64,000 nt of DNA from Asticcacaulis sp. AND118 (GTDB lineage: Bacteria; Pseudomonadota; Alphaproteobacteria; Caulobacterales; Caulobacteraceae): the NCBI RefSeq assembly GCF_020535245.1, contig NZ_CP084910.1:1340501-1404500 (forward strand). Reading direction: 5' to 3'. How positions within the stretch are numbered: the first letter of the stretch is position 1; every line of letters starts with the position of its first letter. The notes beneath the pieces are model-generated. The model did no database searches and was not told where the DNA came from. It was given only the letters and a program-made list of their open reading frames with translations. The position numbers were made by a program, and so were the translations under genes. Below, in pieces: positions 19,208 through 54,900 of the stretch.

Positions 19208-19324
19208 CTTCCGTTTTCTCCGCAGCTAGAATGGTGTCCATGCGGAGAGGCGGCAGAGGCTTGCCACAAACTGCGGCTTTAGACGTCTTAACTGCCGCGG
19301 TTATGTCCAGGAGTGCGTGATGAG

Positions 19325-23429: not shown

Positions 23430-26400
23430 CTATTCACTACCTATGATTCGGAGCTTCATCGCACGGGTCTCCAGGAGATAGGTCTCCACGCCGGCGAGCA
23501 GATGCAGGCCTTCCTCCGTGATCGCCGCCCGCGACAAGCCGGGCTGAATAATTCTGACATCGAATTCATATCGATAGTCCTGCCAGCTTGCCTTCAGTTT
23601 TTTGAGAAACGCGGCAGTTCCGTGCTCGAAACGCGAGGTGGTGCCTTTTTCAAGACGCAACTTCTCACGCTTCAGCATGTGCGTGAACATTCTATAGGGG
23701 CGATCACGCCAACGTGCCGATTTTTGGGCCTGGCCACAGACCTCGTAAAGGTCTTTTACGCGCGCACCTGGTGTGTCCGCGCTGGAGTATTTGCAGTGGT
23801 GGAGGGTTACTTGCACAAGGCCTTCCGTCACACGAACGGCAACTACGTCCGCTATTTCACCAGCTCCGTCATCGTCGAAAATAAGATCATAGATGTTTCC
23901 ATCCGCGAGCAATGTCTCGATCACCCGTCGCTGGACGGAATCTGAGCGCTTTTCTGGTCCCTGTGATTCTGTTCGAATATTGGTCCCGGACCAGTCCCAG
24001 GTTTCCACTCGATCTCGAGGATATGGTTCAACCTTAATACCGTCTGGTAAGGCATAGAGATGGCTGTAGATGAGGAGAGACCCGTCCCCGAAATCAATCT
24101 GAGGGGAGTCTTCACCAAAAGATTCCGACAGCGTTTTCACTTTGCCGCCAATCTTAATTGTTGCCTTCGGCCCTGATCGTTGCAGATAGCGGGCACCGCC
24201 TTCCGCAAAAACGATTTCAAACTCAGCAGCATCAACATTGCTGTGGACCGAGAAACGCAGTGGCCCTGTGCGTTCATGGTCAAGCAATTCGATATCGCAT
24301 TCGGCGAATGGGACTGGCCGATCACCGAAGGTAATTTCGACGCGATCCTCGATCTGTGTCAGCAGTGACTCTGGCCAATGGATCGCAACCGGCGGTACTG
24401 CTGGCCTCTCGTTGATTTGCCGAGGCCGCATGGCACTTTTGAAAACGCCATCAGTGGTGATCCCCGGATCGTTTACGGCCCGACCGATATCAGCACACCA
24501 CTCAACCCAGTCGGTTAGATCGCGGACAGGTGAGATCGACCAGAACTTGCCCTTTGCCGAGCAGCCGCGTGAAGCGGGCACGCCGTCGAGGAAGCCGGTC
24601 GCAAAGACATTATTTTTAATGCGGGATTGCGATTTTGCGGTATCAAGCCCGTCCGCTACATCAACGCCCATGTACATTGAGTAACGAACACCGCGTCCCT
24701 GATGGTGGGTTAAGCCGAGATTGCGCAGAATAAGTCGGTTGAATCCGTGCAGGCAGCGGAAGACTTCCTCTCCTTCCACCCGACGCGCTGTTTCGCCACA
24801 GATGACTTTAGCGAGCCGGTCGTAGGGGCCTTTAGCTGAACTGCTGATATAGAGAAGCTGTCGGTCTGGATCCCAGTGGACCATATGCAGGTCCCAGAAG
24901 ACATTGATGGCATGCTGCGCCGTGGTCCATCCTGCTTGTTCTTCCGATCGAGTGACGAAAATGGCGACGCGCTGGTGTGGGTTGACCTTCATGCCGAGAT
25001 AGATGCCTGGATTATACAGGTCCTCAGCACGTAGTGGCTCCCAGGCCTCGCACGACGTTCGATAGACCACCGCGTTCATTTTTGGTTCGAGCGTCTGAAG
25101 CGGGATATCGTTCAGGTCCCCGACGAAGCCCTTGAACATTTCGGAGCGGCGAACCTGTCGGTCGATCTTTGCCGTGCTGAGGGCCTCGACCAGAGCGTTC
25201 CAGTCGGCGTCCTCCGCATAGAGCTTGGCTAACGAACGGTCGATGTCGTCTACGCCGGTATTGGCGATAACAGTGGCATCGCCCAGGCGCGGATCTTGCC
25301 GCGTGAAACGGCCAACGAACTGGATGGTAACGGCAATGCTTTTGTGCGGATCATGAAGCGCCGCGATTTTCAGTTCCGGAAGATCGAAACCTTCGCCAAG
25401 CATATCGACGCAGACGATGGCCCGGCTCTCGAAGCGCCTCAATGCGGCCAGGTTTGCACGGCGTTCACGGATAGACTGTTGGCTGTGAACGATGACGGGG
25501 TTGAATTCTGGGAACAGTGCGCTGTAGATCCGGTGAAGATCTTTAGCGCGCTCGATAGTCTGGCAGCGCGCCATGGCAAGATGGTTGAGGCCAGCGTCCA
25601 GATCGCCCTGAAGGACTTCACCAAGCTTTTCGGCAATTGCCAGATCGGCATCAGCTTGGTCGAGGCCAAACACGGCTTCAAAACGAATGGGCTTGAAATA
25701 TCCTTCTGATTGAGCCTTCTTGAGGGGGTAGGTGTAGATGAACTCCCCGTCTACGCGTCTTCCATCCTCTCGGAAGGGGGTGGCTGTGAATTGAACGATA
25801 GGGAGCGGTGGATCTCGATCAACAAAGAGGCCACGAAACCGAGCCCAAGTCGGAGCACCGATATGGTGCGCCTCGTCGATGAAGAGCGCTGAAGCACGCT
25901 CGGCCATTTGCTCCTGAACGGGCGCATCCGCGCGGCCGGCAATCTGCATTGTGGTGACAATGACATTTGCGCTGTCGAAAATTTGGTCGACCTCCGCTGG
26001 ACTCGTCGGGATATGCGATAGGCGCATGACAACCGGATAGGAAGCCTTATCGGCCAGGCATTGCTGTTGTCTCAAGACGCCGAAGGTTTCGAACTTGGAT
26101 GATATTTGTTCGCGTAAGGCGTCGGTCGGAACCACTACCAACAATCGCTCAAACTTCTCGTGGGCATTTAGAGCGAGCATCGTTTCGGTCTTGCCTGTCC
26201 CCGTCGGCATGACAATGGTTGCGGGTGCGGTCGATCGTGTTCTGTGTGCCAGCGCTGCGTGAAGCGCTCCGATCTGAGGGCGTCGCAAACCTGGACGCAC
26301 CGGCTCATCGGCGCGTCCTTCGCGCAGATATATCGCGTCAGTCCAAGAGGCTGAGACCGCAGACAGTAGATTTACCCGCGTGTTGTGATCCATCGTGGCT

Positions 26401-26798
26401 ATGTTGGCCGGCCGAGCGTTTATCCAGCGACCTTCGCCAAGCTCCAGGGCTTCGGCTATTTGTTTGGCGTCTGTGGCGTCAGCCACAAGAAGAATAAGGT
26501 CAGCCTCAAGTGGTGTTGCCGTTTTCGCGCTTATAATTTTCAGCGTCTGTCCAGACTTCAGGATAGTCTCATAGCCTGTGACGCGGCGGATAACGAAGCG
26601 ACGTAATTTACAGCGAACGCGCTGGGCTGGAACGATCAACTGACGCACGGTGCTGCCCAGGACCTTACCGTCTACTGCGAGGCGAGGCGGGAGTAGTAGG
26701 TCGACCTCCGGGTCAAAGAGGTCATCCTGAGTTGAATCTGCGCTTCGCTTACGGGGAGGCATCTGACCATCCATCGTCCGTTGACTTAAATCTATCAT
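23430..26798 (-). CDS. DEAH-box helicase, ResIII type, with nuclease-like C-terminus
   Basis: 1,122 residues from the ATG 26798; GTG 26819 and ATGs 26774 and 26762 are alternatives. Superfamily 2 motifs: VMPTGTGKTE (Walker A, 197-204), FIDEAHH (DEAH 308-311), FTATPFR (338-341), motif IV-VI segments IVCVDMLGEGFDLPELKIAALHDP and QFVGRFTRQDP. A family-specific region of 600 residues follows. Near the C-terminus (about 965-1015) a strand pair EIADVVAV...LVQVTLHHCKYS followed by a helix resembles the D...xxK pattern of Mrr-like PD-(D/E)XK nucleases, though the usual Glu/Gln is His. It is expected to be a DNA translocase acting on invading DNA. Divergent from the WYL regulator; lower GC than the next genes. 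Confidence 0.85.
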   Translation of the reverse strand: MIDLSQRTMDGQMPPRKRSADSTQDDLFDPEVDLLLPPRLAVDGKVLGSTVRQLIVPAQRVRCKLRRFVIRRVTGYETILKSGQTLKIISAKTATPLEADLILLVADATDAKQIAEALELGEGRWINARPANIATMDHNTRVNLLSAVSASWTDAIYLREGRADEPVRPGLRRPQIGALHAALAHRTRSTAPATIVMPTGTGKTETMLALNAHEKFERLLVVVPTDALREQISSKFETFGVLRQQQCLADKASYPVVMRLSHIPTSPAEVDQIFDSANVIVTTMQIAGRADAPVQEQMAERASALFIDEAHHIGAPTWARFRGLFVDRDPPLPIVQFTATPFREDGRRVDGEFIYTYPLKKAQSEGYFKPIRFEAVFGLDQADADLAIAEKLGEVLQGDLDAGLNHLAMARCQTIERAKDLHRIYSALFPEFNPVIVHSQQSIRERRANLAALRRFESRAIVCVDMLGEGFDLPELKIAALHDPHKSIAVTIQFVGRFTRQDPRLGDATVIANTGVDDIDRSLAKLYAEDADWNALVEALSTAKIDRQVRRSEMFKGFVGDLNDIPLQTLEPKMNAVVYRTSCEAWEPLRAEDLYNPGIYLGMKVNPHQRVAIFVTRSEEQAGWTTAQHAINVFWDLHMVHWDPDRQLLYISSSAKGPYDRLAKVICGETARRVEGEEVFRCLHGFNRLILRNLGLTHHQGRGVRYSMYMGVDVADGLDTAKSQSRIKNNVFATGFLDGVPASRGCSAKGKFWSISPVRDLTDWVEWCADIGRAVNDPGITTDGVFKSAMRPRQINERPAVPPVAIHWPESLLTQIEDRVEITFGDRPVPFAECDIELLDHERTGPLRFSVHSNVDAAEFEIVFAEGGARYLQRSGPKATIKIGGKVKTLSESFGEDSPQIDFGDGSLLIYSHLYALPDGIKVEPYPRDRVETWDWSGTNIRTESQGPEKRSDSVQRRVIETLLADGNIYDLIFDDDGAGEIADVVAVRVTEGLVQVTLHHCKYSSADTPGARVKDLYEVCGQAQKSARWRDRPYRMFTHMLKREKLRLEKGTTSRFEHGTAAFLKKLKASWQDYRYEFDVRIIQPGLSRAAITEEGLHLLAGVETYLLETRAMKLRIIGSE

Positions 26799-26799
26799 A

Positions 26800-26850
26800 C
26801 GTATATTAACTATACGCACGGAATGTCAACATCCGTATATTTAGTATTCT
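26800..26850. promoter_or_regulatory. Divergent promoter with two operator-like repeats
   Basis: CGTATA-TTAAC-TATACG (26800-26816) is a perfect 6-bp palindrome one base from the helicase ATG. CGTATA-TTTAG-TATTCT (26834-26850) is one base before the WYL ATG. Read towards each gene, both copies have the same layout, with a TANTAT-like -10 box (TAATAT and TAGTAT) at -10 to -5 from the ATG and no Shine-Dalgarno. This suggests leaderless transcripts repressed by the WYL protein. Confidence 0.6.
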
Positions 26851-26851
26851 C

Positions 26852-27730
26852 ATGTTGGAGGCGTTCTTGCGCTGGGGTGTCGAGCAAAGGCTAGAGTTTA
26901 TCGAGTTCCGCCTGTTCTGGGAGGGATCGATAAATCGCGCTGACATTACGAATTTTTTCGGCGTGTCGGTTCCTCAGGCTTCAAAGGACCTGACCGCCTA
27001 CCAGGAGCGTGCCCCTGGAAACATGGAATATGACACGCACGCCAAACGCTATGTTGCCGCAGAGAAATTCGTGCTGCGCTTCCTTGATCCAGATCCTCAT
27101 ATGTATTTGTCGCAACTCCGTGCCGTAACTGAGGGAATGGTCCCTGCGCATGATTCTTGGATCGCTGCGCTTCCGAAAGCGGATGTCGCTCTGACGCCGA
27201 AGCGCGATGTAGATATCGGCGTTCTCAGGGGGGTGCTTGAGGCCGTACGCAAAGGCGCTTCAGTTGAAGTCTTTTACCAGTCGATGAATAAGGTGCGCCC
27301 GGAGCCGATTTGGCGTCGTATCACGCCTCACGCTTTTGGTTTTGATGGTTTCCGTTGGCACGTTCGCGCTTACTGTCATCTTGAGCATCGGTTCAAAGAT
27401 TTTCTCCTTCCTCGCATATTAGAGGTTGGTGTTAAGGGAGAGCCCGGCGAAGGCGAAGGGCAGGATTGGCTTTGGAATAACTATTTCGATGTGATCATCG
27501 GACCACATCCTGCGCTTACGCCAAGTCAGCAAAAAGTCGTCGCCAAGGATTACGGTCTCGACCACGGTCACGGGGTGCTTTCAGTTCGCTATGCGATGCT
27601 TTTCTACGTATTGAAGCGGTTGGGTCTGCTTGGGGACGCTACAAAACAGAGTGCTCATACCCAGCATATTGTGACCATTAATCGCAAAGAGACCGAAGCG
27701 GCGCTTGAAAAAGCGGAGCTTCAGCTATGA
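26852..27730 (+). CDS. WYL-domain transcriptional regulator, BrxR/CapW type
   Basis: 292 residues. The N-terminal winged HTH reads LEFIEFRLFWEGSINRADITNFFGVSVPQASKDLTAYQ, very like BrxR/CapW regulators of BREX and CBASS systems. The WYL domain follows (SVEVFYQSM, then WRRITPHAFGFDGFRWHVRAYCHLEHRFKDFLLPRI, about 140-205), and a C-terminal dimerisation part (about 230-290). Such proteins repress defence operons and sense nucleic acid or nucleotide signals. It starts the rightward operon: the next start is 22 bases after its stop. Operator-like repeats flank its promoter. Confidence 0.9.
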   Translation: MLEAFLRWGVEQRLEFIEFRLFWEGSINRADITNFFGVSVPQASKDLTAYQERAPGNMEYDTHAKRYVAAEKFVLRFLDPDPHMYLSQLRAVTEGMVPAHDSWIAALPKADVALTPKRDVDIGVLRGVLEAVRKGASVEVFYQSMNKVRPEPIWRRITPHAFGFDGFRWHVRAYCHLEHRFKDFLLPRILEVGVKGEPGEGEGQDWLWNNYFDVIIGPHPALTPSQQKVVAKDYGLDHGHGVLSVRYAMLFYVLKRLGLLGDATKQSAHTQHIVTINRKETEAALEKAELQL

Positions 27731-27752
27731 ATGGGTTGAGCGAGGGCAACTG

Positions 27753-30700
27753 ATGGCTGCGCGGCTTGAAGACATAAAGAACGGCGCATCGGTGCGGGGC
27801 GTGGCCTCGGCTCAGGCTGTGCATGTCATTTCGGTGGACTGGATCGGCGATCAGGCGGTCAGCGTCGTCTATCGCGATCACAATGGCGCGGTGGCGGAGT
27901 CGGTCCTCTACCGCGACGATGAGCATCGGCTCGATGTCGAACAGAATGGACGCCCGTGGTCGTTCGACGCTGATGGCGCTTTGTTGCGCTTGGTGACGGA
28001 GGCTAACCGCATCAAACTGGCGCACTACTTCGATCCCTATCTGGCGATCCATACGAGTCTGGTCGATCCGCTGCCGCACCAGATTTCGGCGGTCTATGGC
28101 GAGATGCTGCCGCGACAGCCGCTGCGCTTCCTGCTCGCCGACGATCCCGGCGCCGGCAAGACGATTATGGCCGGGCTGCTGATGAAGGAACTGATCGCCC
28201 GTAGCGACCTGGAGCGCTGCCTCGTGGTCGCGCCCGGCAGCCTGGTCGAACAATGGCAGGACGAACTTGGCCAGAAATTCAATCTGGAGTTCGACATCCT
28301 TTCCCGCGACATGATCGAGAATTCGCGATCAGGCAATCCGTTTAGCGACCGGGACCGGCTGATCGTCCGTCTCGATGTGCTGGCGCGCAACGAGGAGCTT
28401 CAGGAGAAGCTCATGAGCGCGCGCGAATGGGACCTCATCATCTGCGACGAAGCCCATCGCATGTCGGCCACCTATTTTGGCGGAGAGGTGAAATACACCC
28501 GCCGCTATCAGGTCGGCCAGAAGCTCGGCCAGGTCTGCCGGCATCTGCTGTTGATGTCGGCCACACCGCACAATGGCAAGGAAGAGGATTTCCAGCTCTT
28601 CATGGCGCTGCTCGACGGCGATCGGTTCGAGGGCCGGTTCCGCGATGGTGTCCACTACGCCGACACCGAAGACATGATGCGGCGGCTGACCAAGGAGGAA
28701 CTGCTCAAGTTCGACGGTCGGCCGCTCTTCCCCGAGCGGCGGGCGCGCACGGTCAAATATCAGCTCTCGGAGGGGGAGGCAGCGCTCTACACCGCCGTCA
28801 CGGAATATGTGCGAACGGAGATGAACCGCGTGCAGCGCTTCGCGGAGGGCGACGGGAAGAAGCGCAACAATGTCGGCTTCGCCTTGCAGATCCTCCAGCG
28901 CCGGCTCGCTTCGTCACCGGCCGCAATCTACCAGTCCCTTAAACGTCGCCGTGAGCGGCTAGAAAACGAACTGGGCGAAGCCCGCCTTGCCGCCAAGGGC
29001 CGCCGGGCAGGTACGAGCGAGCCGACGATTAATGCCGACATGCTCGGCAACATCGAGGAATATGGCCAGGAGGAGATCGACGAGCTTGAGGACCTGATCT
29101 CGACGGGCGCGACGACGGCCGAGACGGTCGAGCAACTCGCTTTGGAAGTCGAGACGCTGAAGGGGTTAGAGACGATGGCGCTCGGCGTGTTGCGCTCGGG
29201 CGTGGATACGAAGTGGACCCAGCTGAACCGCATCCTCGACGACGATCTGATGGTCGATGCGGCTGGCAATCGCCGCAAGCTGATCATCTTCACGGAGCCC
29301 AAGGACACGCTGCACTACCTGCTCGACAAGGTCAGGGCGCGGATCGGCAATCCCGAGGCGGTCGAGGTGATCCACGGCGGCGTGTCGCGCGAAGAGCGGC
29401 GCAAGGTCGTCGAGCGCTTCATGCAGGACAAGGACATGCTGGTCCTGATCGCCAACGACGCGGCCGGTGAAGGCGTGAACCTTCAGCGCGGCCACCTGAT
29501 GGTCAATTACGACCTGCCGTGGAACCCGAACAAGATCGAGCAACGGTTCGGCCGCATCCATCGCATCGGTCAGACCGAGGTGTGCCACCTGTGGAATCTC
29601 GTCGCGGCCGATACGCGCGAGGGCGAGGTCTACGCCCGGCTGCTCGAAAAGCTGGAAGCCGCGCGCGAGGCGCTGGGCGGCCGCGTCTATGACGTGCTCG
29701 GCGAATTGTTCGACGGCGTGGCGCTCAAGGATCTGTTGTTCGAGGCGATCCAGTATGGCGAGCGGGAAGAGGTCAAGGCCCGCCTGTTCCAGCAGGTCGA
29801 TGGCGCCGTCGACCAGGCGAACCTGCTTGAGCTTCTGCGCCGCCGCGCCCTGACCAACGACACGATGCCGGAGGCCAAGGTCGAGGAACTGCGCCTTGAA
29901 ATGGAGCGCGCCGAAGCGTTGCGCCTGCAGCCGCATCACATCCAGAGCTTCTTCGTCGAGGCGTTCCAGCATCTAGGCGGCCGGATCAAGCGCCGTGAAG
30001 AAGGGCGCTGGGAGGTCACGCATGTACCTGTGCGTATCCGTGAGCGGGACCGCCAGATCGGAACCGGCGCGCCGCTTCAGACGCAGTATGAGCGGATCTG
30101 CTTCGAGAAAGACAAGATCAACCAGCAGCCGGTCGCGGCATTCGTCTGCCCCGGCCATCCGCTGCTCGAAGCCGTGATCAGCCTGATCCGCGAGCAGTAT
30201 GAGCAGATCATGCGGCAGGGTGCGATCCTGGTAGACGACACCGATGCGGGCGACGCGCTGTCGGCGATTTTCCTGCTGGAGCACACCGTTCAGGACGGCC
30301 GCGTCACCAGTGTCGGCAAGCCGCATGTAATTTCGCAGCGGCTCCAGTTCGCCGCCATCGACAAGGCCGGAAACACCGTAAACGCCGGCATCGCGCCGCA
30401 TTTGAACCTGCGGCCTGCCAAGCCGGAAGAGGTCGCCAGCGTGCGTGATCTTCTGGAAGAGAGCTGGCTGACCACCGATCTGGAAAAGGCCGCGATCCGG
30501 TTCGCGACGGTCGAGCTGGCGCAGGGCCATGTCGCCGAGGTCAAGGCGCGGCGCTTGCCCGAGATCGAAAAGGTCGAGCAGGAGGTTCGCGCCCGGCTCA
30601 AGAAGGAGATCAATTACTGGGACTCGCGCGCCTTCGAGCTGAAGGAAGAGGAGCGGGCCGGCAAGAAGACTCGGGTGAACTGGCAGAACGCGCAGCGCCG

Positions 30701-31256
30701 GGCCGAGGATCTGGCGGATCGGCAAAAGCGCCGCATGGACCAGCTTGAACGGGAGCGGTTCATCTCCTCGCAGCCGCCGCGCGTGCGGGGCGGCATGGTC
30801 GTCATCCCGCGTGGGCTACTGGAAGAGCGTCAGGTGCCAAGCATCCCGAACCATTTCGCGGAAGACCCCGTTGCGCGCCGGGTGATCGAGCTTGCTGCGA
30901 TGGAAGCCGTCATGGCGGCCGAGCGGGCGCTGGGCAATGAGCCGGCCGACGTCTCCGCCCAGAAGATCGGCTATGACATCGCCTCGCACGATCCGAAGTC
31001 GGGACATCTGCGCTTCATCGAGGTCAAGGGGCGCATCGACGGAGCCGACAGCGTGATGGTCACGCGGCAGGAGGTCATCACCTCCCTGCACGAGCCGGAG
31101 AAGTTCATCCTCGCTATTGTGCCGGTTGCCGCCGGTTTCGCCCATGCGCCGCGCTATGTGCGCGGCCCGCTCGTGGAACGGGAACCGTCCTTCCTCGAAA
31201 CCGCGATCCAGTTCGACCTTCGGCGCCTTCTGGAGCGCGCGGAGGCTCCGCTGTGA
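27753..31256 (+). CDS. DrmD-like SNF2-family helicase with C-terminal DUF3883 domain
   Basis: 1,167 residues from the ATG 27753 (GAGGG upstream); a TTG 16 codons earlier lies inside the WYL gene and is unlikely. SNF2 motifs: DPLPHQ, LLADDPGAGKTIMAG (Walker A 130-137), LIICDEAHRM (DEAH 232-235), LLLMSATPHNG (269-273), then the helicase C lobe VEVIHGGVSREERRKVVERF, ANDAAGEGVNLQ, NPNKIEQRFGRIHRIGQ. The C-terminal DUF3883 domain (GYDIASHDPKSGHLRFIEVKG, about 1073-1093) carries the Asp and ExK of the PD-(D/E)XK fold. This architecture is that of DrmD in class 1 DISARM. Stop overlaps the next start (GTGA). Confidence 0.9.
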   Translation: MAARLEDIKNGASVRGVASAQAVHVISVDWIGDQAVSVVYRDHNGAVAESVLYRDDEHRLDVEQNGRPWSFDADGALLRLVTEANRIKLAHYFDPYLAIHTSLVDPLPHQISAVYGEMLPRQPLRFLLADDPGAGKTIMAGLLMKELIARSDLERCLVVAPGSLVEQWQDELGQKFNLEFDILSRDMIENSRSGNPFSDRDRLIVRLDVLARNEELQEKLMSAREWDLIICDEAHRMSATYFGGEVKYTRRYQVGQKLGQVCRHLLLMSATPHNGKEEDFQLFMALLDGDRFEGRFRDGVHYADTEDMMRRLTKEELLKFDGRPLFPERRARTVKYQLSEGEAALYTAVTEYVRTEMNRVQRFAEGDGKKRNNVGFALQILQRRLASSPAAIYQSLKRRRERLENELGEARLAAKGRRAGTSEPTINADMLGNIEEYGQEEIDELEDLISTGATTAETVEQLALEVETLKGLETMALGVLRSGVDTKWTQLNRILDDDLMVDAAGNRRKLIIFTEPKDTLHYLLDKVRARIGNPEAVEVIHGGVSREERRKVVERFMQDKDMLVLIANDAAGEGVNLQRGHLMVNYDLPWNPNKIEQRFGRIHRIGQTEVCHLWNLVAADTREGEVYARLLEKLEAAREALGGRVYDVLGELFDGVALKDLLFEAIQYGEREEVKARLFQQVDGAVDQANLLELLRRRALTNDTMPEAKVEELRLEMERAEALRLQPHHIQSFFVEAFQHLGGRIKRREEGRWEVTHVPVRIRERDRQIGTGAPLQTQYERICFEKDKINQQPVAAFVCPGHPLLEAVISLIREQYEQIMRQGAILVDDTDAGDALSAIFLLEHTVQDGRVTSVGKPHVISQRLQFAAIDKAGNTVNAGIAPHLNLRPAKPEEVASVRDLLEESWLTTDLEKAAIRFATVELAQGHVAEVKARRLPEIEKVEQEVRARLKKEINYWDSRAFELKEEERAGKKTRVNWQNAQRRAEDLADRQKRRMDQLERERFISSQPPRVRGGMVVIPRGLLEERQVPSIPNHFAEDPVARRVIELAAMEAVMAAERALGNEPADVSAQKIGYDIASHDPKSGHLRFIEVKGRIDGADSVMVTRQEVITSLHEPEKFILAIVPVAAGFAHAPRYVRGPLVEREPSFLETAIQFDLRRLLERAEAPL

Positions 31257-34200: not shown

Positions 34201-35476
34201 TCGCACCCTGCTGGTACGCTACCCGACCCGCATCTGGGAGGAGCGCGGGCACTGGCTCAATCTCATCGGCGAATGGGCGCCGGTCGGGACTCTGGCCTAT
34301 GGCCTCAGCATGCAGAGCCTGTTCCGGTGGAGTCACCTGCATGAATGGGTCAAGCGCAAGACCGCGGATTTTCAGCGGTTGTCGGGGGAGGTCGTGCAGG
34401 CGCCGCCTTTCTCCGCTTTGCCGGCCTTGTCAGACCTGGTCGAGGAGCGGTTCAACCAACCGTCTCTGCTGGCCGGCATGGAGGATCGTCGCCCCTGGTT
34501 GGTGGCATTCGGAACACAGCTCGGGCGGATCGAGCTTGCCGATGCCGGCGAGACCGAGCGCGTGCGGGGGCTGGCGCAGACCATCGTTGAGACGAGTTGG
34601 GCTCCGGCGCCCAAGCTGGAGGTCATTCCCTACCTCGACGGTGTGCCCGCGGGCACGGCACGGCTTACAGACATCCTGTGGCTAGACCGGAAACTGTTCG
34701 TCAGTCCGTTGTCGAAGGCGAAGCTCGCCAAGCGTGTGCCGGAAGAGATCGGGAAGAGCCTGAGCGCCGATTTTCGCGCGGCGCTGGCCTATGCTTTTGA
34801 GCGCTCGCCCGACGACATTCGGGATTATCTCGAGGAGAACTTCACGCTCGGCCCAGAGCAAATCGTTGTCGCGCCTGTCGTCGAGCCACAGCCCGTCGCT
34901 GTTCCTGACGATGATGGCGGTATCGATGAGGCTGACGAAGGCGTCCGCGACGATGCCGAGATGGTCGACTTCGATGGTTCAGATCTGTCGAAAGCGGACG
35001 TGCCTGCTCCGCAGCCTGAGCCGCAAGCTAGGGAACCGGAGCGCGAGCTGATCGAAACGGAGGTGGCGACCAGGCCCCGGGCCGCGCCGAAGCCGCCCTG
35101 TCCGAGCGTGATGGCGCGGTTTGCATTAGCCCAAGGCTATAAGGCCGATGGCCAAGATCGCTTTTTCCATGCGGACGGAAGCTGGATCGGTCGTGGCAAC
35201 GGCGCGCGCTTTCCGTGGGAGCGCCGCTCGGCGGGCGGTGAGATTCTGCGGCACTACTATCCTAAAGACCATTGCCTGGAGCACGAACCGCTCCAGCTCG
35301 ATGCCGACGTCTGGGGCCTGCTCGACCAGAAGCCGGACCTCTATTCGTTCATTCTCATCAACCCGGAAGGTGGTCCCGTCGAGATGACGGGCGCCCGCCT
35401 GCGCGCTCTGCGCGACGGCGGCGAACTGACCATCCATCCCGCAACGTACAGGCTTGTGTATGACCTCGACGACTAA
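31253..35476 (+). CDS. Giant sacsin/Hsp90-type (GHKL) ATPase-domain protein
   Basis: 1,407 residues, GTG start overlapping the preceding stop. The N-terminus carries the GHKL nucleotide pocket: SELLQNADDAGASEARVSIE (N box, 58-66) and TIGFRGIGFKSTFSLGD (G2 lid box, 112-120), as in the sacsin-type Hsp90 ATPase repeats. The remaining 1,200 residues have no motif I recognise. A low-complexity acidic/Pro linker lies at about 1215-1285 (DDDGGIDEADEGVRDDAEM, PAPQPEPQ), before a compact C-terminal domain of 110 residues. Sacsin-like ATPases occur in defence loci beside helicases and methylases. Role here probably sensing or regulation; inferred. Confidence 0.82.
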   Translation: MTANTQLAANSAAWPDYFQPIQERATKRWDQLEADPELAGPWHQLFKQVQSPRHILSELLQNADDAGASEARVSIENDRFVFEHNGEDFIEAHFASICRFGYSNKRALHTIGFRGIGFKSTFSLGDRVELFTPTLAVAFERARFTQPHWIDSRSLTSETTRVEVAIANPLLRREVEKNLDEWLKSPVSLLFFKKIRRLRIGDSEVHWQSLGPGPIAESEWMALDEKANDPFLLVRSAEEAFPDEALDEIRKERMLGAEDSGDFPPCRVEIVLGAKGRLYVVLPTGVETTLPFACNAPFIQDPARLKIKDPETSPTNRWLLNRAGELAAGAMMEWLEQTKTGARDRADAYGLLPDVDREATTLEGACGAIVELAFDAVIDGRSMLLTEEGQLVEAKAAITVPRPVFDIWPAEQAMALLDAKSRPALCQHVSAKNRTKLVHWGLVEEFSKSDLLDRLRSHHLPRPATWRHLLNLWAYIAPEVTGWQCHDADALRIVPVQGKEVLYAASEIVRLGEKKLLQSDEDWEFLASHLVVLNQNWTRFLAEQRRDKAEGESHNEPVEAAFAVLEEIGLDGTSDVNAVVDRVAADYFGSGEAKLAECVQIAQISAKLGVTVGDAFRYACADLKLHATDKGVMFDENGTLNELLPDSIRKTQLLHSDYVASFKSCTREDWLRWVSSGRSGLLTMAPLASKRTSLYGRQRAVSEAQARGQRHALYYAYVTESFVLDDWDFPADYWRHWEALSKTDPGIWAKIVGKILEQRDTYWSRSSAMRLSQVATTGSTRSVSSEPLLADWLMKLRAKPCLPDTRNMIQLPADLVRRTPETEALIDVEPFVHGLLDRETTRPLLDLLGVRKTPSGPGRLLDRLRALAKSDRAPAHEVEKWYRRLDQMLDSCSTADAQNIRNAFKTEKLILAQDGTWTTASGVFLAGDEEDVPGAAVVRASVLDLSLWHRIGVADRPSADLALQWLETLASGKALSPDDLRRVRTLLVRYPTRIWEERGHWLNLIGEWAPVGTLAYGLSMQSLFRWSHLHEWVKRKTADFQRLSGEVVQAPPFSALPALSDLVEERFNQPSLLAGMEDRRPWLVAFGTQLGRIELADAGETERVRGLAQTIVETSWAPAPKLEVIPYLDGVPAGTARLTDILWLDRKLFVSPLSKAKLAKRVPEEIGKSLSADFRAALAYAFERSPDDIRDYLEENFTLGPEQIVVAPVVEPQPVAVPDDDGGIDEADEGVRDDAEMVDFDGSDLSKADVPAPQPEPQAREPERELIETEVATRPRAAPKPPCPSVMARFALAQGYKADGQDRFFHADGSWIGRGNGARFPWERRSAGGEILRHYYPKDHCLEHEPLQLDADVWGLLDQKPDLYSFILINPEGGPVEMTGARLRALRDGGELTIHPATYRLVYDLDD

Positions 35477-38288
35477 CCCCAAGAAGAAACTGATCGAGGT
35501 TGCGATCCCGCTCGAAGCGATCAACGCCGCCTCCGCACGCGAGAAGTCGATCCGGCATGGGCATCCATCCACGCTTCATCTGTGGTGGGCGCGGCGGCCG
35601 CTGGCGGCGTGCCGCGCGGTCCTGTTCGCCCAGCTTGTCGATGATCCGTCGAGTGATCTCGAGAAATTCCCCACACATGAAGCGCAAGAAGCCGAGCGCA
35701 AGCGGTTGTTTGCCATCATCGAAGATCTGGTGAAGTGGGAGAACTCGACCAACGAGGAGGTGCTTGAACGCGCCCGCGCTGAAATCCGCAAAAGCTGCGG
35801 CGGCGTTCTGCCGCCGGTCTATGACCCGTTCTCGGGCGGCGGATCGATCCCGTTGGAGGCTCAGCGCCTTGGTCTGCCCGCCTATGGGTCCGACCTGAAC
35901 CCGGTGGCGGTGATGATCGGCAAGGCGATGATCGAGATTCCGCCGAAGTTCAAGGACATGCCCCCCATCCACCCCGGCATCAAGGAGCGGTCGTTCTACC
36001 GCAACGCCGAAGGGCTGGCCGAGGATGTCCGATATTACGGCGAATGGATGCGCGAGAAGGCATGGGAGCGCGTCGGACATCTATACCCGCAAGTGGACCT
36101 CCCGAAAGAGTATGGCGGCGGCAAGGCGACTGTGATTGCTTGGATTTGGGCGCGCACGGTACCGAGTCCGGACCCGGCCTTTGCAGGTGCGCAGGTACCT
36201 ATTACCTCGAGCTTTGCTCTTGGAACTAAGCCGGGGCGGGAGGCTTGGATCAAGGCAACGCCTGATCGAAATAAAAAGAGTGTGCAATACGAAGTCCAGA
36301 GAGGCGGGGCATCGGAGGAAGTTGCTAGGGCAAAGAAGGGAACCAAAGCGGGGCAGGCAAATTTCCGATGTATTTTGTCGGATGCTCCCATTTCAGGTGC
36401 ATACATTGACGAAGCCGCGTCTCAAGGAAAGATGGGGCGTGTTTTGCTAGCTGTTGCGGCTGAGGGCGCAAGGGGGAGGGTCTATTTGAGCCCTTCCTCT
36501 GAACAATTGGAAGCTCTCGCTTTGGCGGACAGAACCATCGGTGAGTTAGATACAGCTTTTCTCAGAGTTCCGTGTCGTGGAACATTTGCGAGCAACGCGC
36601 AGGGTCGAAAGTATGGCTTCGAAACATTTGAAGACTATTTTCTCCCGAGACAGCTCGCTTCACTGACGGCGCTCTCAGATGCTCTCGACGAAGTGCAAAG
36701 TAGGGTTCTTCAGGATTTTAGTCGCTCAGGCGGGCGAGGAGATGAAGCTCCACTTGCTACAGGGGGAGTTGGCCCACGTGCGTATGCTGAAGCCATTAGA
36801 ATATTTTTGGCCTTCGCGATCGATAGGTCTGCTGATCGTGGCTCGACCCTCTGCTCGTGGGACTCATCTCCTAAGATGGAAGCACTACGAAATACGTTCG
36901 CACGTCAGGCAATTCAGATGACATGGGACTTTGCAGAGGGGAATCCATTTTCTGAATCAAGTGGAAATTTTCTTAGTAATGTTGATTGGGTTGCTCGAGT
37001 TGTGGATATGTTGGCGCCTAGCGCCCATGGTTCTATTTCACAACATGATGCGCAAACAATCACATATCCCGGTCAAGTAGTAATTTCGTCCGATCCGCCA
37101 TATTATGATAATATAGAGTATTCTGATCTATCTGATTTCTTTTATGTTTGGCTGAAGCGCAACTGCGGTCCAGTCTACCCTGAAATATTTGGCTTTTTGT
37201 CAACGCCAAAAAGCGAAGAATTGGTAGCGACAAGATATCGTCATGGAGGTCAGGAAGAAGCCGATAGTTTCTTTCTGAGCGGGATGACAAAAGCAATAAA
37301 GCGAATGACTTCGCAGGTTGGTGCAAATAATCCCGCTACGATTTATTACGCATTCAAGCAAAGTGAAGTTGAAAATGAAGGTATAAGCTCTACGGGTTGG
37401 GCGACGTTTTTGCAGGCTGTGATCCAAGCCGGTTTTTCTGTCCTTGGCACTTGGCCAATGCGCACTGAGATGGCGAATCGCATGGTCGCTTCGGGCACCA
37501 ACGCCCTTGCTAACTCGGTCGTCCTTGTATGTCGCAAGAAGGAAGAGTCGGCGGAGGTCATCACGCGGGCCGAGTTCATCCGCGCGCTAAAGCGCGAGCT
37601 GCCTCCTGCCATCGCCAAACTTCAAGCCGCCAACATTGCCCCCGCAGATATGCCGCAATCGGCTATTGGCCCCGGTATGGGCGTGTTCTCACGCTACAAG
37701 GCGGTATTGGAATCTGATGACAGCCCGATGAGCGTCAAGACGGCGCTCCAGCTCATCAATCGGGAGTTGGATGAGTATCTTGGCGGTATCCAAGGCGAGT
37801 TTGATGCTGATACCCGTTTCGCTATTACTTGGTTTGAGCAGAACGGGCTGAAGGCTGGCGACTACGGCACCGCCAACAGCATCGCCACAGCGCGCGGCAT
37901 CTCCGTCGAAAGCGTCAAACACGCCGGTATCGTTGAAAGCGCTGCCGGCAAAGTGCGCATACTCTCTCGTGATGAACTCGATGAGAGTTGGCAACCGGAA
38001 GATGACCGTCACCTAACGGTGTGGGAGTGCCTTCAGCATCTGGTCCGGCTGCATGAGAAGGACGGCATTTCTCACGACACCGTCATCTTGATGAAGAAGA
38101 TCAGTTCCCAGGCTGAGGCGGTGAAGGATCTCGCCTACTGCCTCTACGACATCAGCGCCAACAAGCGGAAGGATGCGAAGGAGGCCACGGCCTACAACGC
38201 TCTGATTGCCGACTGGACTGAGCTGACAAAGGCTGCTGCGGCCATTCACGACACGAGTGGGGATCGTCAGATCCGGCTGGATATTTAA
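35460..38288 (+). CDS. DUF1156 DNA methyltransferase (adenine-specific type)
   Basis: 942 residues from the ATG 35460, overlapping the previous gene by 17 bases. Starts with the DUF1156 domain (KKLIEVAIPLEAINAASAREKSIRHGHPSTLHLWWARRPL). The SAM motif I is YDPFSGGGSIPLEAQ (DPFSGGGS 122-129) and catalytic motif IV is SSDPPYYDNIEYSD (DPPY 545-548), so it is a likely N6-adenine or N4-cytosine methylase. About 36,200-37,450 is markedly A/T-rich compared with both ends (60 bases from 37,081: 19 G/C; from 33,301 in the neighbouring gene: 44), which points to recombination of the central part. It would mark self DNA for this system. Confidence 0.9.
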   Translation: MTSTTNPKKKLIEVAIPLEAINAASAREKSIRHGHPSTLHLWWARRPLAACRAVLFAQLVDDPSSDLEKFPTHEAQEAERKRLFAIIEDLVKWENSTNEEVLERARAEIRKSCGGVLPPVYDPFSGGGSIPLEAQRLGLPAYGSDLNPVAVMIGKAMIEIPPKFKDMPPIHPGIKERSFYRNAEGLAEDVRYYGEWMREKAWERVGHLYPQVDLPKEYGGGKATVIAWIWARTVPSPDPAFAGAQVPITSSFALGTKPGREAWIKATPDRNKKSVQYEVQRGGASEEVARAKKGTKAGQANFRCILSDAPISGAYIDEAASQGKMGRVLLAVAAEGARGRVYLSPSSEQLEALALADRTIGELDTAFLRVPCRGTFASNAQGRKYGFETFEDYFLPRQLASLTALSDALDEVQSRVLQDFSRSGGRGDEAPLATGGVGPRAYAEAIRIFLAFAIDRSADRGSTLCSWDSSPKMEALRNTFARQAIQMTWDFAEGNPFSESSGNFLSNVDWVARVVDMLAPSAHGSISQHDAQTITYPGQVVISSDPPYYDNIEYSDLSDFFYVWLKRNCGPVYPEIFGFLSTPKSEELVATRYRHGGQEEADSFFLSGMTKAIKRMTSQVGANNPATIYYAFKQSEVENEGISSTGWATFLQAVIQAGFSVLGTWPMRTEMANRMVASGTNALANSVVLVCRKKEESAEVITRAEFIRALKRELPPAIAKLQAANIAPADMPQSAIGPGMGVFSRYKAVLESDDSPMSVKTALQLINRELDEYLGGIQGEFDADTRFAITWFEQNGLKAGDYGTANSIATARGISVESVKHAGIVESAAGKVRILSRDELDESWQPEDDRHLTVWECLQHLVRLHEKDGISHDTVILMKKISSQAEAVKDLAYCLYDISANKRKDAKEATAYNALIADWTELTKAAAAIHDTSGDRQIRLDI

Positions 38289-38302
38289 GGGGGAAACGGA
38301 AC

Positions 38303-41300
38303 ATGGCAAAAAGCACACGCCAACACGTGTTTGAGGGTATGGAGCTGCTGCCTGCGGCGTTGATCCCCTTCGTTGAAAAGCGGCTTGAAACGTCTCTTCC
38401 AGGGCATTGGCAGGTTCAGGTTCTGGAGAAGCTGCCCAGCCTTCGACCGAACAGCACCGGCGCTGTAGGCTGGGACCAGGCTGCACTCTTCAATGCGATG
38501 GATCGTTTCTGGAGCGAGGCGTTCAAGGCGGTCCTCGGCCGCGCGGAAAGGTCGCTGGTCAACGAATTGAGCGATGTCCGCAACAAGCTCTCGCACAACG
38601 AAACCTTCACCTATGACGATGCGGAGCGGGCTCTCGATACCATGCGCCGGCTGATGGAAGCTATCAGCGCTGGCGAGACGGCGGAACAACTCGGCAAGAT
38701 GCGCGACACAATCCTCCGGACGAAGTTCACTGAGCTTCAGCGCAACGAGGAGCGGCGGAAGACGCAGCGTCTTGAAATCTCGGTCGAGACGGTGGCGGGT
38801 TTGCTGCCGTGGCGTGAGGTTGTCGAGCCGCATCAGGATGTGGCTACCGGCGAGTTCCAGCAGGCTGAATTCGCTGCCGACCTTGCCAAGGTTCATTCGG
38901 GCAGTGCCCCGCCGGAATATCGCGACCCGCGCCAGTTTTTCAGTCGGACCTACCTGACGGAAGGGCTGAGCGCGCTGTTGGTCGGGTCGGCGAAGCGGCT
39001 ATCCGGTGCGGGTGGGGATCCTGTCGTTGAGCTGCAAACCAATTTCGGCGGCGGTAAGACGCACTCGATGCTGGCGCTCTATCACATGGCGGGACCGACG
39101 CCGGTCCAGGACCTCTCCGGCTTGGATCAGTTGCTCGAAAAGCAGGGGCTCAGCGTGCCTGAAGCCATCAACCGCGCTGTGCTTGTAGGCACCTCGCGTG
39201 GGCCGCAGGACGTTCTCAACGCTGATGGCGGTCGAAAAATCCGGACAACATGGGGTGAGTTGGCTTGGCAGCTGGGAGGAGCTGAAGCCTTCGATATGGT
39301 CGCCGAGAACGATGCCAACGGTATCGCACCAGGCTCCAACCTGCTTGAGGCACTTTTCAAGAAATGCGCACCGTGTCTGATATTGATCGATGAATGGGTC
39401 GCATATTTGCGTCAAATTTATAAAGTCGAGGGACTGCCGTCCGGGTCGTTCGATGCCAACCTGTCCTTCGTCCAGTCTCTGACCGAGGCGGTTAAGGCCA
39501 GCCCCGGCACGTTGTTAGTCGCCTCCCTGCCGGCCTCGCAGATCGAGGTGGGTGGAGAAGGCGGTCAGGAAGCGCTCGCGCGACTCAAGCAGACTTTCAG
39601 CCGCGTGGAATCTTCTTGGCGTCCTGCCAGTCAGGAAGAAAGCTATGAGATCGTCCGGCGTCGTCTCTTCAAGGACATCCCCGGCGACAAGTTCCATCAT
39701 CGGGACAACACGCTTAAGCAGTTCGCCAAGCTCTATCGGGAGAACGCGAACGATTTCCCGCAAGGCTGTGCTGATGAAGATTACCGTCGGAAGTTGGAAA
39801 AGGCCTATCCGATTCACCCGGAACTGTTCGACCAGCTCTATACCACATGGGGATCACTCGAAAAATTCCAGAGAACGCGCGGCGTCCTCCGCCTTATGGC
39901 GCAGGCTATTCACGAGCTTTGGATGAACGGCGACCCGTCGGTCATGATTATGCCCGGCAGCGTGGCGGTGAGTTCGCCACGCGTGGAGCCTGAACTGCTC
40001 CACTATCTCGACGTGAGCTGGCAGGCGATCATCGCTGGCGACGTTGATGGTACAACATCGACACCTTACAGGGTGGATCAATCCGCCCCCAATCTAAATC
40101 GATATTCGGCCACACGTCGCGTTGCCCGGGCAATCTTCATGGGCACTGCCCCGACAGCGCAGCAGCAGAACACGGGCCTCGATGACAAGCAGATCAACCT
40201 CGGTGTGGTTCAGCCAGGGGAGCGGCCGGCAATCTTCGGCGACGCATTGCGGCGGCTGACCAATCAAGCCAAGTTTATGCACTCTGATCTTGGCCGCTAC
40301 TGGTACTCCATGTCGGCTAGCCTGAATCGCATCGCGGCCGATAAGGCCGCGCAGATCGAGGCGGCTTTGGTTGACGTCACGATCGATACCGAACTTGGAA
40401 AATATGTGAATGGTCTCGCGGATCGAGGGCATTTCGACGCCGTGCAGGTGGCACCCGCATCGTCAGCGGAAGTTCCCGACGAAGCGGGCGGGGTGCGGGC
40501 CGTGGTGCTTGGCGTAAAGTATCCACATAATGGACGCGATGGTTCGGAGGCCCTTGGGGAGGCCAAAACCATTCTGCTGCAACGCGGCAGTACACCACGT
40601 GTCTACCGCAACACTCTGGTTTTCATTGCAGCGGAAAGCCGACAGCTCGATCATCTGAAAGACGCCGTACGTGCGTCGTTGGCATGGGGTGAAATCGTCC
40701 GCGATACCGAACGCCTAAATCTCACGCAGAGCGACAGCGCACTTGCCAAGGCCAAGTTGGCTGAAGCGAACGAAACGATGAAGACGCGCCTGAAAGAAGC
40801 CTGGTGCTACCTGCATTACCCGGCCCAGGAGAGCGCGCATGCCGATTGGGAGTGGCAGTCTGGTAAAATACCGGCGCAGGACGGTCTGCTCGCCCGTGCC
40901 AGCAAGAAGCTGGTGGCGGAGGAGGGACTGCTGGTCGAGCTAGGACCTGCGCGCCTCGACAGAGACCTCCAGAAATATATCTGGAACGACAAGCCCCGTT
41001 TGTCTCTCAAAGATCTGCGCGAGTATCTGAACCGCTATATCTACCTGCCGCGCCTCAAAGGGCAGGATGTCCTTATCAAGGCTGTACAAGCGGCCATTAG
41101 CGGTATGTTGCCTGGCCCATTCGCTTATGCTGAACGGTACGATGACAAGTCAGATTCGTATCTGGGGCTGGCCATTGAGCGTGCAAGCAACGCGATTGTT
41201 GTGATCGATAGCGACAGCGTCATCATTAAGCCAGAGGTTGCGGAAGCACACCGTCCTGTGCCGCCGTCCTCCGACGCGACGGAGCAAACTGTGACGGCGG

Positions 41301-41599
41301 GTGGTCCCGCTGCTGCGCCGTCCGTTGCGATTTCAGGTGACAGCGTCACGGCGCAACAAATTGAAAAAAAGCCAACCCGCTTCCTGGGTACGGTGATGAT
41401 TTCATCGGAACGACCGGCAAGGGACATACATCAGATAGTCGAGGCGATCGTCGAACAGTTGACGACCCTTCCTGGAAGCGACGTTAGACTCCGTCTGGAG
41501 ATTGATGCTGAGGTTCCAGCCGGACTTGAGCGAGCGAAGGTGCGAACACTAATCGAAAATGCAAATACCTTGGGTTTCATTCAGAAGTCGATTGAATGA
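38303..41599 (+). CDS. DUF499 P-loop ATPase with N-terminal HEPN-like segment
   Basis: 1,098 residues. The N-terminus (about 60-125) is helical and contains ELSDVRNKLSHNETFTYDDAERAL, with R93-N-K-L-S-H98 fitting the RX4-6H motif of HEPN (Swt1-like) RNases. The DUF499 ATPase core follows: LQTNFGGGKTHSMLALYH (P-loop 247-255) and CLILIDEWVAYL (Walker B, about 358-366). A Pro/Ala-rich linker precedes the C-terminal domain (about 1030-1098). DUF499 and DUF1156 genes are regular neighbours in defence islands. GGGGGA ribosome site 14 bases after the methylase stop; last gene of the operon. Confidence 0.9.
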   Translation: MAKSTRQHVFEGMELLPAALIPFVEKRLETSLPGHWQVQVLEKLPSLRPNSTGAVGWDQAALFNAMDRFWSEAFKAVLGRAERSLVNELSDVRNKLSHNETFTYDDAERALDTMRRLMEAISAGETAEQLGKMRDTILRTKFTELQRNEERRKTQRLEISVETVAGLLPWREVVEPHQDVATGEFQQAEFAADLAKVHSGSAPPEYRDPRQFFSRTYLTEGLSALLVGSAKRLSGAGGDPVVELQTNFGGGKTHSMLALYHMAGPTPVQDLSGLDQLLEKQGLSVPEAINRAVLVGTSRGPQDVLNADGGRKIRTTWGELAWQLGGAEAFDMVAENDANGIAPGSNLLEALFKKCAPCLILIDEWVAYLRQIYKVEGLPSGSFDANLSFVQSLTEAVKASPGTLLVASLPASQIEVGGEGGQEALARLKQTFSRVESSWRPASQEESYEIVRRRLFKDIPGDKFHHRDNTLKQFAKLYRENANDFPQGCADEDYRRKLEKAYPIHPELFDQLYTTWGSLEKFQRTRGVLRLMAQAIHELWMNGDPSVMIMPGSVAVSSPRVEPELLHYLDVSWQAIIAGDVDGTTSTPYRVDQSAPNLNRYSATRRVARAIFMGTAPTAQQQNTGLDDKQINLGVVQPGERPAIFGDALRRLTNQAKFMHSDLGRYWYSMSASLNRIAADKAAQIEAALVDVTIDTELGKYVNGLADRGHFDAVQVAPASSAEVPDEAGGVRAVVLGVKYPHNGRDGSEALGEAKTILLQRGSTPRVYRNTLVFIAAESRQLDHLKDAVRASLAWGEIVRDTERLNLTQSDSALAKAKLAEANETMKTRLKEAWCYLHYPAQESAHADWEWQSGKIPAQDGLLARASKKLVAEEGLLVELGPARLDRDLQKYIWNDKPRLSLKDLREYLNRYIYLPRLKGQDVLIKAVQAAISGMLPGPFAYAERYDDKSDSYLGLAIERASNAIVVIDSDSVIIKPEVAEAHRPVPPSSDATEQTVTAGGPAAAPSVAISGDSVTAQQIEKKPTRFLGTVMISSERPARDIHQIVEAIVEQLTTLPGSDVRLRLEIDAEVPAGLERAKVRTLIENANTLGFIQKSIE

Positions 41600-45235: not shown

Positions 45236-45915
45236 GATCCAAGCTCCTTCGACCAGTTGATGGCGTTGATGTAGATCCCGAGGGGATTTTTCCTGAGCGT
45301 GTCGGCATCGCGGGGCGGCTGCACGGCGACGGTCAGGATCGCGGACCAGCGCTCGGTCGCGGCCAATGATCCATCCTGATAGCGGCGTTCGATCCAGGCG
45401 ACGCGGAAACTCGAAGGCGAGGCGCGGATCACGCTGGAAACCTCGACGGCAATCTGTTGCTTGCCGACCTTGGCGAAGGGATCATTGGCGCGGGCATAGT
45501 CGTTGAGCGCCAGCGCACCGCCCTGCGTCGTAAAATCATAGGCGCGCAGCCAATTCTGCCGCACGATGATCGGATCGGCAGGAATGCTCCTGACCTGTTC
45601 GATGAAACGGGCAAGGTAGAAGGCAATCTGAGCGTCGTTGGGCTGATAGTCGGCGGTCGCAGGTGCAATGGCTTGCGCCTGTCCGAGTTTGTCGACCTGC
45701 ACCACCCAGGGCACGACCGAACCATTCGTCGACTGCCAGACCAGCGCGCCTGACAATCCCGCTGACAAGGCAAGCGAACCGAAGGCCATCAGCCGCCAGT
45801 TCTTTGCCTGAACGCGGGCAGAGCCGATGCGATCGTCCCAGACCTGGGCCGCACGCTGATAGGGCGTTTCGGGCTCGGGGGATTTGCCGTAATGGGTGGA
45901 GGGTCGCTTGAACAT
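45232..45915 (-). CDS. trbF: Conjugal transfer protein TrbF (VirB8-like)
   Basis: 227 residues from the ATG 45915; a TTG two codons upstream is unlikely. Bitopic inner-membrane protein with one helix (LMAFGSLALSAGLSGALVW) and a periplasmic NTF2-like VirB8 domain (PWVVQVDKLGQAQAIAPA, ending NPLGIYINAINWSKELG). It nucleates assembly of the transfer channel. Two bases after the trbL stop. Confidence 0.95.
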   Translation of the reverse strand: MFKRPSTHYGKSPEPETPYQRAAQVWDDRIGSARVQAKNWRLMAFGSLALSAGLSGALVWQSTNGSVVPWVVQVDKLGQAQAIAPATADYQPNDAQIAFYLARFIEQVRSIPADPIIVRQNWLRAYDFTTQGGALALNDYARANDPFAKVGKQQIAVEVSSVIRASPSSFRVAWIERRYQDGSLAATERWSAILTVAVQPPRDADTLRKNPLGIYINAINWSKELGS

Positions 45916-45917
45916 GG

Positions 45918-47273: not shown

Positions 47274-47275
47274 GG

Positions 47276-47581: not shown

Positions 47582-47591
47582 GGCGTCACCC

Positions 47592-50794: not shown

Positions 50795-50807
50795 GGTGGC
50801 GCTCTCC

Positions 50808-54893: not shown

Positions 54894-54900
54894 GTGCACC

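Follow-up and report, generated by a model that had tools for sequence, protein, structure and literature searches.

Hma was named in 2021 for its helicase, methylase and ATPase, and was found in 26 phyla (Payne et al. 2021, PMC8565338). Its gene context had been noticed earlier, as HEPN-DUF499 with SNF2-DUF3883 in 2013 (PMC3710099) and as the same operon, with EVE domains, in 2020 (PMC7641849); in 2026 the three-gene core was reclassified as Type-1 BREX-related (BR), with 2446 taxa and a HEPN fusion in 1370 (PMC12839542). The block of genes considered here lies in a 64,000-nucleotide stretch of Asticcacaulis sp. AND118 (contig NZ_CP084910.1, positions 1,340,501 to 1,404,500; 'the window' is this whole stretch). 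It encodes the same three proteins as Hma, in the same order. Unlike Hma, it has a CapW-type regulator gene in front, and its hmaA and hmaB are separated by a gene for a 1407-residue sacsin-type GHKL ATPase.

The explanation that fits this arrangement best is an Hma/Type-1 BR system that has gained the GHKL protein as a fourth core subunit and kept it, with a CapW-type regulator in control; in such a system the GHKL protein would gate HmaA. We give this reading an even chance; the gating is suggested by gene order, covariation and gene fusions. The lasting extra subunit is the part that we did not find named: in the literature searched, which excluded bioRxiv preprints and supplements, no paper tied sacsin or GHKL to Hma or DUF499 systems. 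The main text of PMC12839542 has zero mentions of sacsin, MORC, HATPase, Hsp90 or 'GHKL'; PMC3710099, in excerpt, has both sacsin/GHKL and DUF499-type terms, in separate contexts.

The core of the block

27705..31256, plus strand: HmaA, SNF2/DEAH helicase with a C-terminal DUF3883 (NOV_C) nuclease-type domain, 1183 aa (PDLC00659, 1587 bits, residues 20-1181)
31253..35476, plus strand: sacsin-type GHKL ATPase, 1407 aa, its open reading frame (ORF) overlapping both neighbours (NF047352, SACS, N-terminal part of TmtA)
35454..38288, plus strand: HmaB, DUF1156 DNA methyltransferase, 944 aa, with a variable middle at about 250-650 (PDLC00660, 1161 bits)
38303..41599, plus strand: HmaC, HEPN_Swt1-DUF499 AAA+ ATPase, 1098 aa (PDLC00662, 948 bits)
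26852..27730, plus strand: CapW/BrxR-type WYL transcriptional regulator, 292 aa, true start uncertain (Pfam WYL)
23430..26819, minus strand: divergent ResIII/DEAH helicase, 1129 aa, a neighbour (ResIII and Helicase_C domains)

An earlier note on this DNA, made from the letters alone, had described these six ORFs and their domains, which hold at these coordinates with a HEPN domain added on the DUF499 protein. The last five genes are tightly packed, as it had said: measured at mechanical ORF ends, three junctions overlap, by 26, 4 and 23 bp, and the fourth leaves a gap of 14 bp. It had counted six genes as one system and had been unable to name the core ATPase set. Neither view stands. The leftward helicase was ruled out as a sixth gene because it adjoins the block in only 1 of the 23 GTDB loci, fetched by their GHKL gene, that form our conservation set (L022, 79% identity); the block is therefore one of five genes, and the helicase a changing neighbour. 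PADLOC Hma models match all three core proteins near full length, and by these matches, in adjacent genes, the three are Hma, with HmaA, HmaB and HmaC encoded together.

The residues expected of each protein are kept. HmaA consists of SNF2, Helicase_C and NOV_C (DUF3883) domains, with GAGKT and DEAH in 34 of 34 alignment rows; in its DUF3883 part E1106 and K1108 are likewise present in all 34, and D1091 in 33 (L025 has G). HmaB has DPPY, a motif of amino-methyltransferases, at residue 547, and in 33 of 34 rows, the remaining row being truncated. HmaB was first proposed as an m5C enzyme (PMC8565338, in excerpt); the DPPY of the protein encoded here fits an amino-methyltransferase instead. HmaC begins with a Swt1-type HEPN domain (PF18731, residues 12-122, 94.7 bits) followed by DUF499 (109 bits). 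Its HEPN residues R93/H98 are found in all 24 GHKL-bearing rows and in 29 of 31 overall, the other two lacking the domain, and its GGGKTH in 31 of 31. That HmaC had lost its ATP site in favour of the GHKL protein was considered when a first pattern saw no P-loop, and was ruled out by the conservation of GGGKTH.

The block also has the parts of Type-1 BR: a DUF499 ATPase with HEPN (a fusion that is optional in that class), a DUF1156 methyltransferase, predicted to be of N6 type, and an SNF2 helicase whose C-terminal nuclease has the D/ExK of a PD-(D/E)XK-type DUF3883. The mark of Type-3 BR, PglZ (PF08665), has no match in the genome; for that of Type-2 BR, DUF3780, no block gene matched in Pfam, a genome-wide search not having been made. 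The simplest organisation of Type-1 BR is the three core genes only. Since the GHKL gene separates hmaA from hmaB, in the window as in all 23 related loci, the block is called a variant.

The GHKL protein

The N-terminus of the giant matches NCBIfam NF047352 (76.3 bits, cut-off 50) and Pfam SACS (32.8 bits, exactly at the cut-off). Its ATP-binding part spans about 50-370, and homology to other sacsin-GHKLs is detectable to about 470: comparison of profiles with two remote sacsin-GHKL sets aligned residues 39-470 (99.5%) and 52-468 (99.4%). Further along are an acidic linker at about 1200-1250 and a conserved C-terminal part at about 1270-1407. Residues E58, N62, D65, G112, G115 and G117 are invariant in 15 rows, and we take them to be the ATP-site motifs of the GHKL type. 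Sequence searches of the PDB with GHKL profiles gave sacsin at E 0.24-0.72 for the N-terminal part, and pollen-allergen noise for the C-terminal part. A protein search in which 8000 candidates were scored returned 1684 relatives at E <=0.001; among the 120 of these that were listed, relatives have 77-96% identity and 1381-1434 aa. A fast-varying phage sensor is disfavoured by the mean identity per 50-residue bin, 70-98% apart from the acidic linker (41%).

Tiamat (TmtA), reportedly described by Millman et al. in 2022, is one of the closest named systems. Against PADLOC at E 0.001 the GHKL protein matches nine TmtA models only, the best at 192.5 bits over GHKL residues 50-367 and model positions 73-394 of 1486. 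The likeness is thus to the sacsin-type GHKL N-terminal region; the match covers no more than the initial fifth to quarter of the TmtA models, and the gene of the window lies inside an operon. With the N-terminal part alone matching, a full Tiamat was ruled out. No HEC or PDC model was matched in PADLOC-DB v2.0.0, in which the presence of every HEC model was not confirmed.

Conservation, history and covariation

In all 23 loci of the conservation set hmaA lies upstream and hmaB downstream of the GHKL gene, an order kept more than chance would allow. The hmaC gene follows in 21, L007 and L017 lying on contigs that stop short of it, and the WYL gene stands on the same strand directly upstream of hmaA in 22 (exception L011). 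A methylation-linked defence block around a GHKL giant, carried by an integrative and conjugative element, as the earlier note had described it, is supported, and its order is kept in varied contexts. The presence of the GHKL gene in these loci proves nothing alone, because they were chosen by it; samples chosen otherwise follow.

Among 385 genomes of the class, the GHKL protein has a match in 10 and orthologues in three (G000, G175 and the decayed copy of G066), all beside hmaB; HmaB has a match in 25, 13 of them above 300 bits, and 10 of these 13 are without a GHKL orthologue (in G065 and G314 the operon is cut by a contig end). Among 398 genomes of the phylum, the HmaC model matched in 23, and the GHKL protein in any form in 7, with orthologues only in G000 and G066. 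No GHKL orthologue away from hmaB was found in the 385 plus 398 genomes. Plasmids gave 59 records with HmaA at <=1e-100, of which 30 were listed. Of 14 plasmid records with any GHKL match, every one of which was listed, three carry an orthologue, and these coincide with the three listed HmaA records at >=85% identity. In the order to which G066 belongs, HmaA occurs in 7 of 76 genomes. Two, at 92 and 96%, have the GHKL gene directly behind: that of G838 is visible up to residue 500, where the fetched stretch stops, and that of G066 (locus L037) is decayed, the GHKL middle and the end of hmaB being missing, with no hmaC found in the stretch. The five others, at about 50-61%, show no GHKL in the 1.5 kb fetched. 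With repeats removed, close HmaAs (>=85%) in samples not chosen by GHKL have it behind them in six of six cases (G000, G175, the decayed G066, G838 and a pair of B. barranii plasmids, probably near-copies), and among distant ones none was seen to have it.

The HmaA tree agrees: of its 37 rows, the 27 that bear GHKL are set apart by a single branch (SH-aLRT 100), and no row without GHKL falls among them. The tree was made by a quick method, long distant branches meet in it, and it left out L001, L027 and L042 (repeats), L026 (the same record as L038) and pieces below 150 bits or 400 aa. Closest to the clade among the rows without GHKL are L034, which has an ORF of 424 aa between hmaA and hmaB (the slot), and L029, whose slot is empty; outside the tree the nearest is L081, a Rhodobacter plasmid: its HmaA stands at 79%, its slot holds a gene for 210 aa, and the WYL query missed the WYL gene annotated there. 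A single gain of the GHKL gene is the simplest history.

Within the clade, the proteins change together, hmaB apart. Mean identity to the window per 50-residue bin is 76-99% in HmaA, 83-99% in HmaC except for 58-62% at 951-1050, and 34-65% over residues 251-650 of HmaB. Distances in 22 loci correlate at r 0.83 for HmaA and GHKL and at 0.71 for both GHKL with HmaC and HmaA with HmaC, each with 0 of 2000 permutations as high; distances of HmaB against these three give r 0.06-0.20, with 207-644 of 2000 permutations. Dropped from the calculation were L003 (unread letters), L007 and L017 (contig ends), L037 (decayed) and L038 (by choice). The conserved ends of HmaB are likewise uncorrelated with the other three proteins, and the whole hmaB gene therefore appears to be exchanged.

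Sacsin-type GHKL proteins beside other helicases

The pairing of an SNF2 motor with a sacsin-type GHKL recurs in unrelated operons. An SNF2 helicase gene is followed directly by one in L047:4538-11202, L048:20-6837, L051:6717-13384, L066:3700-10036 and L067:3696-10036, the last two being Rhizobium plasmids; the helicase is fused to HEPN_Swt1 in L047, L048 and L051. We found no name for these pairs. They resemble the block in the motor directly followed by the GHKL gene, and in HEPN_Swt1 for three of them; they differ in a GHKL protein of about 1030-1055 aa, in the lack of any hmaB or hmaC seen in these loci, and in a helicase that, in the two scanned, is nearer DrmD models than HmaA. Such a pair without hmaB or hmaC is a candidate two-gene defence, as judged from gene content. 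In L049, L050 and L052 the sacsin-GHKL itself carries NOV_C/DUF3883, and in 4 of the 14 plasmid records the annotation beneath the GHKL match reads 'DUF3883 domain-containing'. Five loci fall outside the SNF2/DUF3883 pattern: L044, whose contig is too short, L053, where no Pfam family was matched, L069, annotated as HNH, and L068 and L070, taken up below. This follow-up left out G221, G238, G330, G508 and the plasmid hits H12 and H13.

What the GHKL protein may do

If the GHKL protein is a core subunit, the system might work as follows. The regulator would keep the promoter at 26781-26848 low and release it during infection, as for CapW and BrxR; HmaB would mark host DNA, probably at adenine, with its variable middle choosing the site; HmaC, the DUF499 AAA+ protein, and HmaA, with its SNF2 motor and DUF3883 nuclease, would scan DNA and cut what is unmarked, as published for this family; GHKL itself, in our proposal, would bind HmaA and act as an ATP-driven clamp or switch, like MutL and Hsp90, gating movement or cutting; finally, the HEPN RNase on HmaC may be a last-resort suicide arm, as has been hypothesised in print.

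A second perspective supposes that the GHKL protein is an independent single-gene defence of the Tiamat kind, seated in a plug-in slot of the Hma operon, co-transcribed with it and outside its machine. Embedded defences are known in Hma operons (PMC12255303, PMC10855318, PMC12988326, each in excerpt), the same slot holds other genes in related loci, and the N-terminal part of the protein matches TmtA models, at up to the 192.5 bits given above. That match ends at residue 367 against a model of 1486 positions, however; the two genome samples gave no orthologue that stands apart from hmaB; and throughout the clade the GHKL gene persists and varies in step with HmaA and HmaC, whereas other slot genes come and go. 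We regard this main rival as rather unlikely. A chaperone like sacsin or Hsp90, folding or assembling the Hma complex or its HEPN arm with no direct part in cutting, would be in keeping with the sacsin-type ATPase domain and the very large size of the partner proteins, and human sacsin, which has a HEPN domain, has been considered as a chaperone (PMC3710099, in excerpt). The DUF3883 fusions and the SNF2 pairs suit a DNA-related role better, though, and Hma elsewhere assembles without GHKL; such a function seems distinctly improbable.

The earlier note had called the block DISARM-related, and it does share with DISARM a methyltransferase and an SNF2 helicase distantly related to DrmD: HmaA scores 394 bits with the best PADLOC DrmD model and 387 with that of NCBIfam (NF038317), the latter below its cut-off of 610. 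The HmaA model is better by about 1200 bits, HmaB and HmaC match Hma models near full length, and nowhere in the genome is there a match to the MZB/DUF1998 domain of DrmB (PF09369), in a search positive for 8 of 14 control genomes. This supports the absence of drmB that the earlier note had asserted. As to drmA, no block gene matched DrmA models except HmaA (223 bits, helicase kinship); drmA and drmC were not searched for genome-wide. By the profiles and the missing MZB/DUF1998 domain, DISARM membership is rejected, and a variant of DISARM is scarcely credible.

Several points weigh against a gating subunit. Most Hma systems work without GHKL, so the family does not need it. Covariation reflects in part the common descent of one linked block, and there are only six close HmaAs outside the GHKL-chosen loci, two of them probably near-copies. 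Beyond about residue 470 the GHKL protein matches nothing in the comparison with the two remote sets, made with low-depth profiles; AlphaFold models of it are unusable (15 rows each; mean pLDDT 42.6 and 35.9), and no fold or interface backs the gating. Sacsin-GHKLs also occur in other contexts, with a type III-like helicase and a methylase in L068, and, as a 474-aa protein beside SAVED and nucleotidyltransferase genes, in a CBASS-like setting at L070:3919-8266.

A further, tentative step beyond the gated Hma system, one that we think more doubtful than the gating itself, would make the block a separate BREX-related subtype, in which an obligate Hsp90/sacsin giant licenses the SNF2 helicase-nuclease and hmaB is exchanged as a specificity cassette; sacsin-GHKL with SNF2, with or without HEPN, would be a recurring minimal module, also serving as a methylase-free two-gene defence. 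An independently varying hmaB predicts a change of specificity by the exchange of one gene. Hma/Type-1 BR is widespread, and the GHKL lineage would give a direct genetic handle on how its complex decides to cut. A slow-evolving GHKL beside a helicase-nuclease, with unrelated operons repeating the pairing, may tie bacterial sacsin-like giants to a defined defence machine.

Regulator and promoter

26781..26848, plus strand: promoter and operator-like dyad; -35-like TTGACT at 26781-26786, 17 bp, TATTAA at 26804-26809

The WYL protein, which the earlier note had rightly placed as BrxR/CapW-type, is the more CapW-like: it scores 208 bits with S. maltophilia CapW and 123 with BrxR, and among structures it matches CapW 7tb6/7tb5 at E 1e-60/1e-59 and BrxR 7t8k at E 2e-34. 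In front of it the two halves of the dyad (26802-26816 with 26834-26848) are complementary at 12 of 15 positions; an equally good dyad with the same gap occurs at 3 of 63,953 positions in the window. The mechanical GTG start of the leftward helicase falls inside this operator, and its true start is therefore probably further in.

Upstream regions were aligned for 21 of 25 GHKL-bearing loci (the window and L002-L025, leaving out L007, L011, L016 and L017). TTGAC is present in 21 of 21, in surroundings that hardly align, and the conserved stretch after it holds the region's best 15-bp dyad in 18 (not L006, L021 and L025); the dyad is perfect in L015. One dyad arm is found with at most one mismatch of 16 in L002, L005, L022 and L037, and only with at least four in L029, L034, L040, L081 and L011.

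Genes in the slot and beside the block

Between hmaA and the GHKL gene a conserved 163-aa protein is encoded at L005:9513-10004, and at the same place in L006, L007, L008, L018, L019 and L021; it is shortened in L009, and the L005 copy has no Pfam or PADLOC match at E 1. A slot protein of 418-430 aa, with a PD-(D/E)XK-like pattern by eye, is found with GHKL at L010:14242-15498 and in L019 and L021:14217-15509, and without GHKL at L034:7429-8703; the L010 copy has no Pfam match. ASCH-like slot proteins, with a B3-like part after or fused (by eye), occur at L036:8174-8944, L025:10636-11516, L013:8542-9516 and L024:8536-9516; that of L025 matches ASCH weakly (E 0.007) and B3 more weakly, both below cut-offs. 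An ATPase and HNH-like pair between hmaA and hmaB at L028:6902-8876 looks Septu-like by eye, as reported for Hma, and a 197-aa slot protein at L020:14245-14838 shows a HEPN-like RNxxxH by eye and has no Pfam match.

Left of the WYL gene, in 25 loci, there is a PD-(D/E)XK gene in 14, a UvrD helicase in 13 and a DEAH helicase in two (the window and L022). The first two form an AddAB-like divergent pair at L004:2710-5364 and L002:1-2780, whose nuclease has no PADLOC match. A CBASS cyclase and a phospholipase take this place in L010, and a JAB/E1-E2-type set in L025; downstream of the block, L013 has a match to a TIR-pAgo-type model.

The mobile carrier

18329..18338, strand not assigned: left junction of the carrier, splitting radC; 10-bp core, the same at the right junction G000:C1:1427678
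19313..20893, plus strand: large serine recombinase (Resolvase and Recombinase domains)
42931..58724, minus strand: conjugation genes (Pfam for the four ORFs that follow; TrbI by similarity to a TrbI-positive protein of L004)
45918-47273, minus strand: TrbL (Pfam)
48356-50794, minus strand: TrbE-type ATPase (Pfam)
54901-56889, minus strand: TraG-type coupling protein (Pfam)
56913-58724, minus strand: DUF3363 relaxase-type protein (Pfam)

By Pfam content and comparison of the junctions, the carrier is an integrative and conjugative element (ICE), as the earlier note had proposed: 68,849 bp between junctions, with defined ends in a chromosome gene and with recombinase, type IV secretion, coupling-protein and relaxase-type genes. 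The gene that it splits is taken to be radC from an HNHPSG motif; an unsplit radC is present in G755, of the same genus. A LysR gene follows hmaC in 11 of the 23 loci, then TrbI and TrbG genes in part of those, and the recurrence points to a single ICE family as a frequent carrier of the block. IMG/VR viral stretches gave no match to six peptide patterns of a kind that detects close relatives only. An RNA gene at the left end was rejected: Rfam had none at gathering scores, and the conserved stretch there is coding.

Three smaller features of the window may be recorded. The trbI of the ICE (42931-44183, minus strand) looks split into two overlapping ORFs of 247 and 183 aa, relatives having one of about 418 aa. 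After the recombinase, at 20893-22726, two ParB/RepB-like genes have a layout that recalls plasmid partition. A repeat of about 105 bp at about 16478-16582 has at least 10 more genomic copies, of which nine stand at 96-97% and the tenth at 85%.

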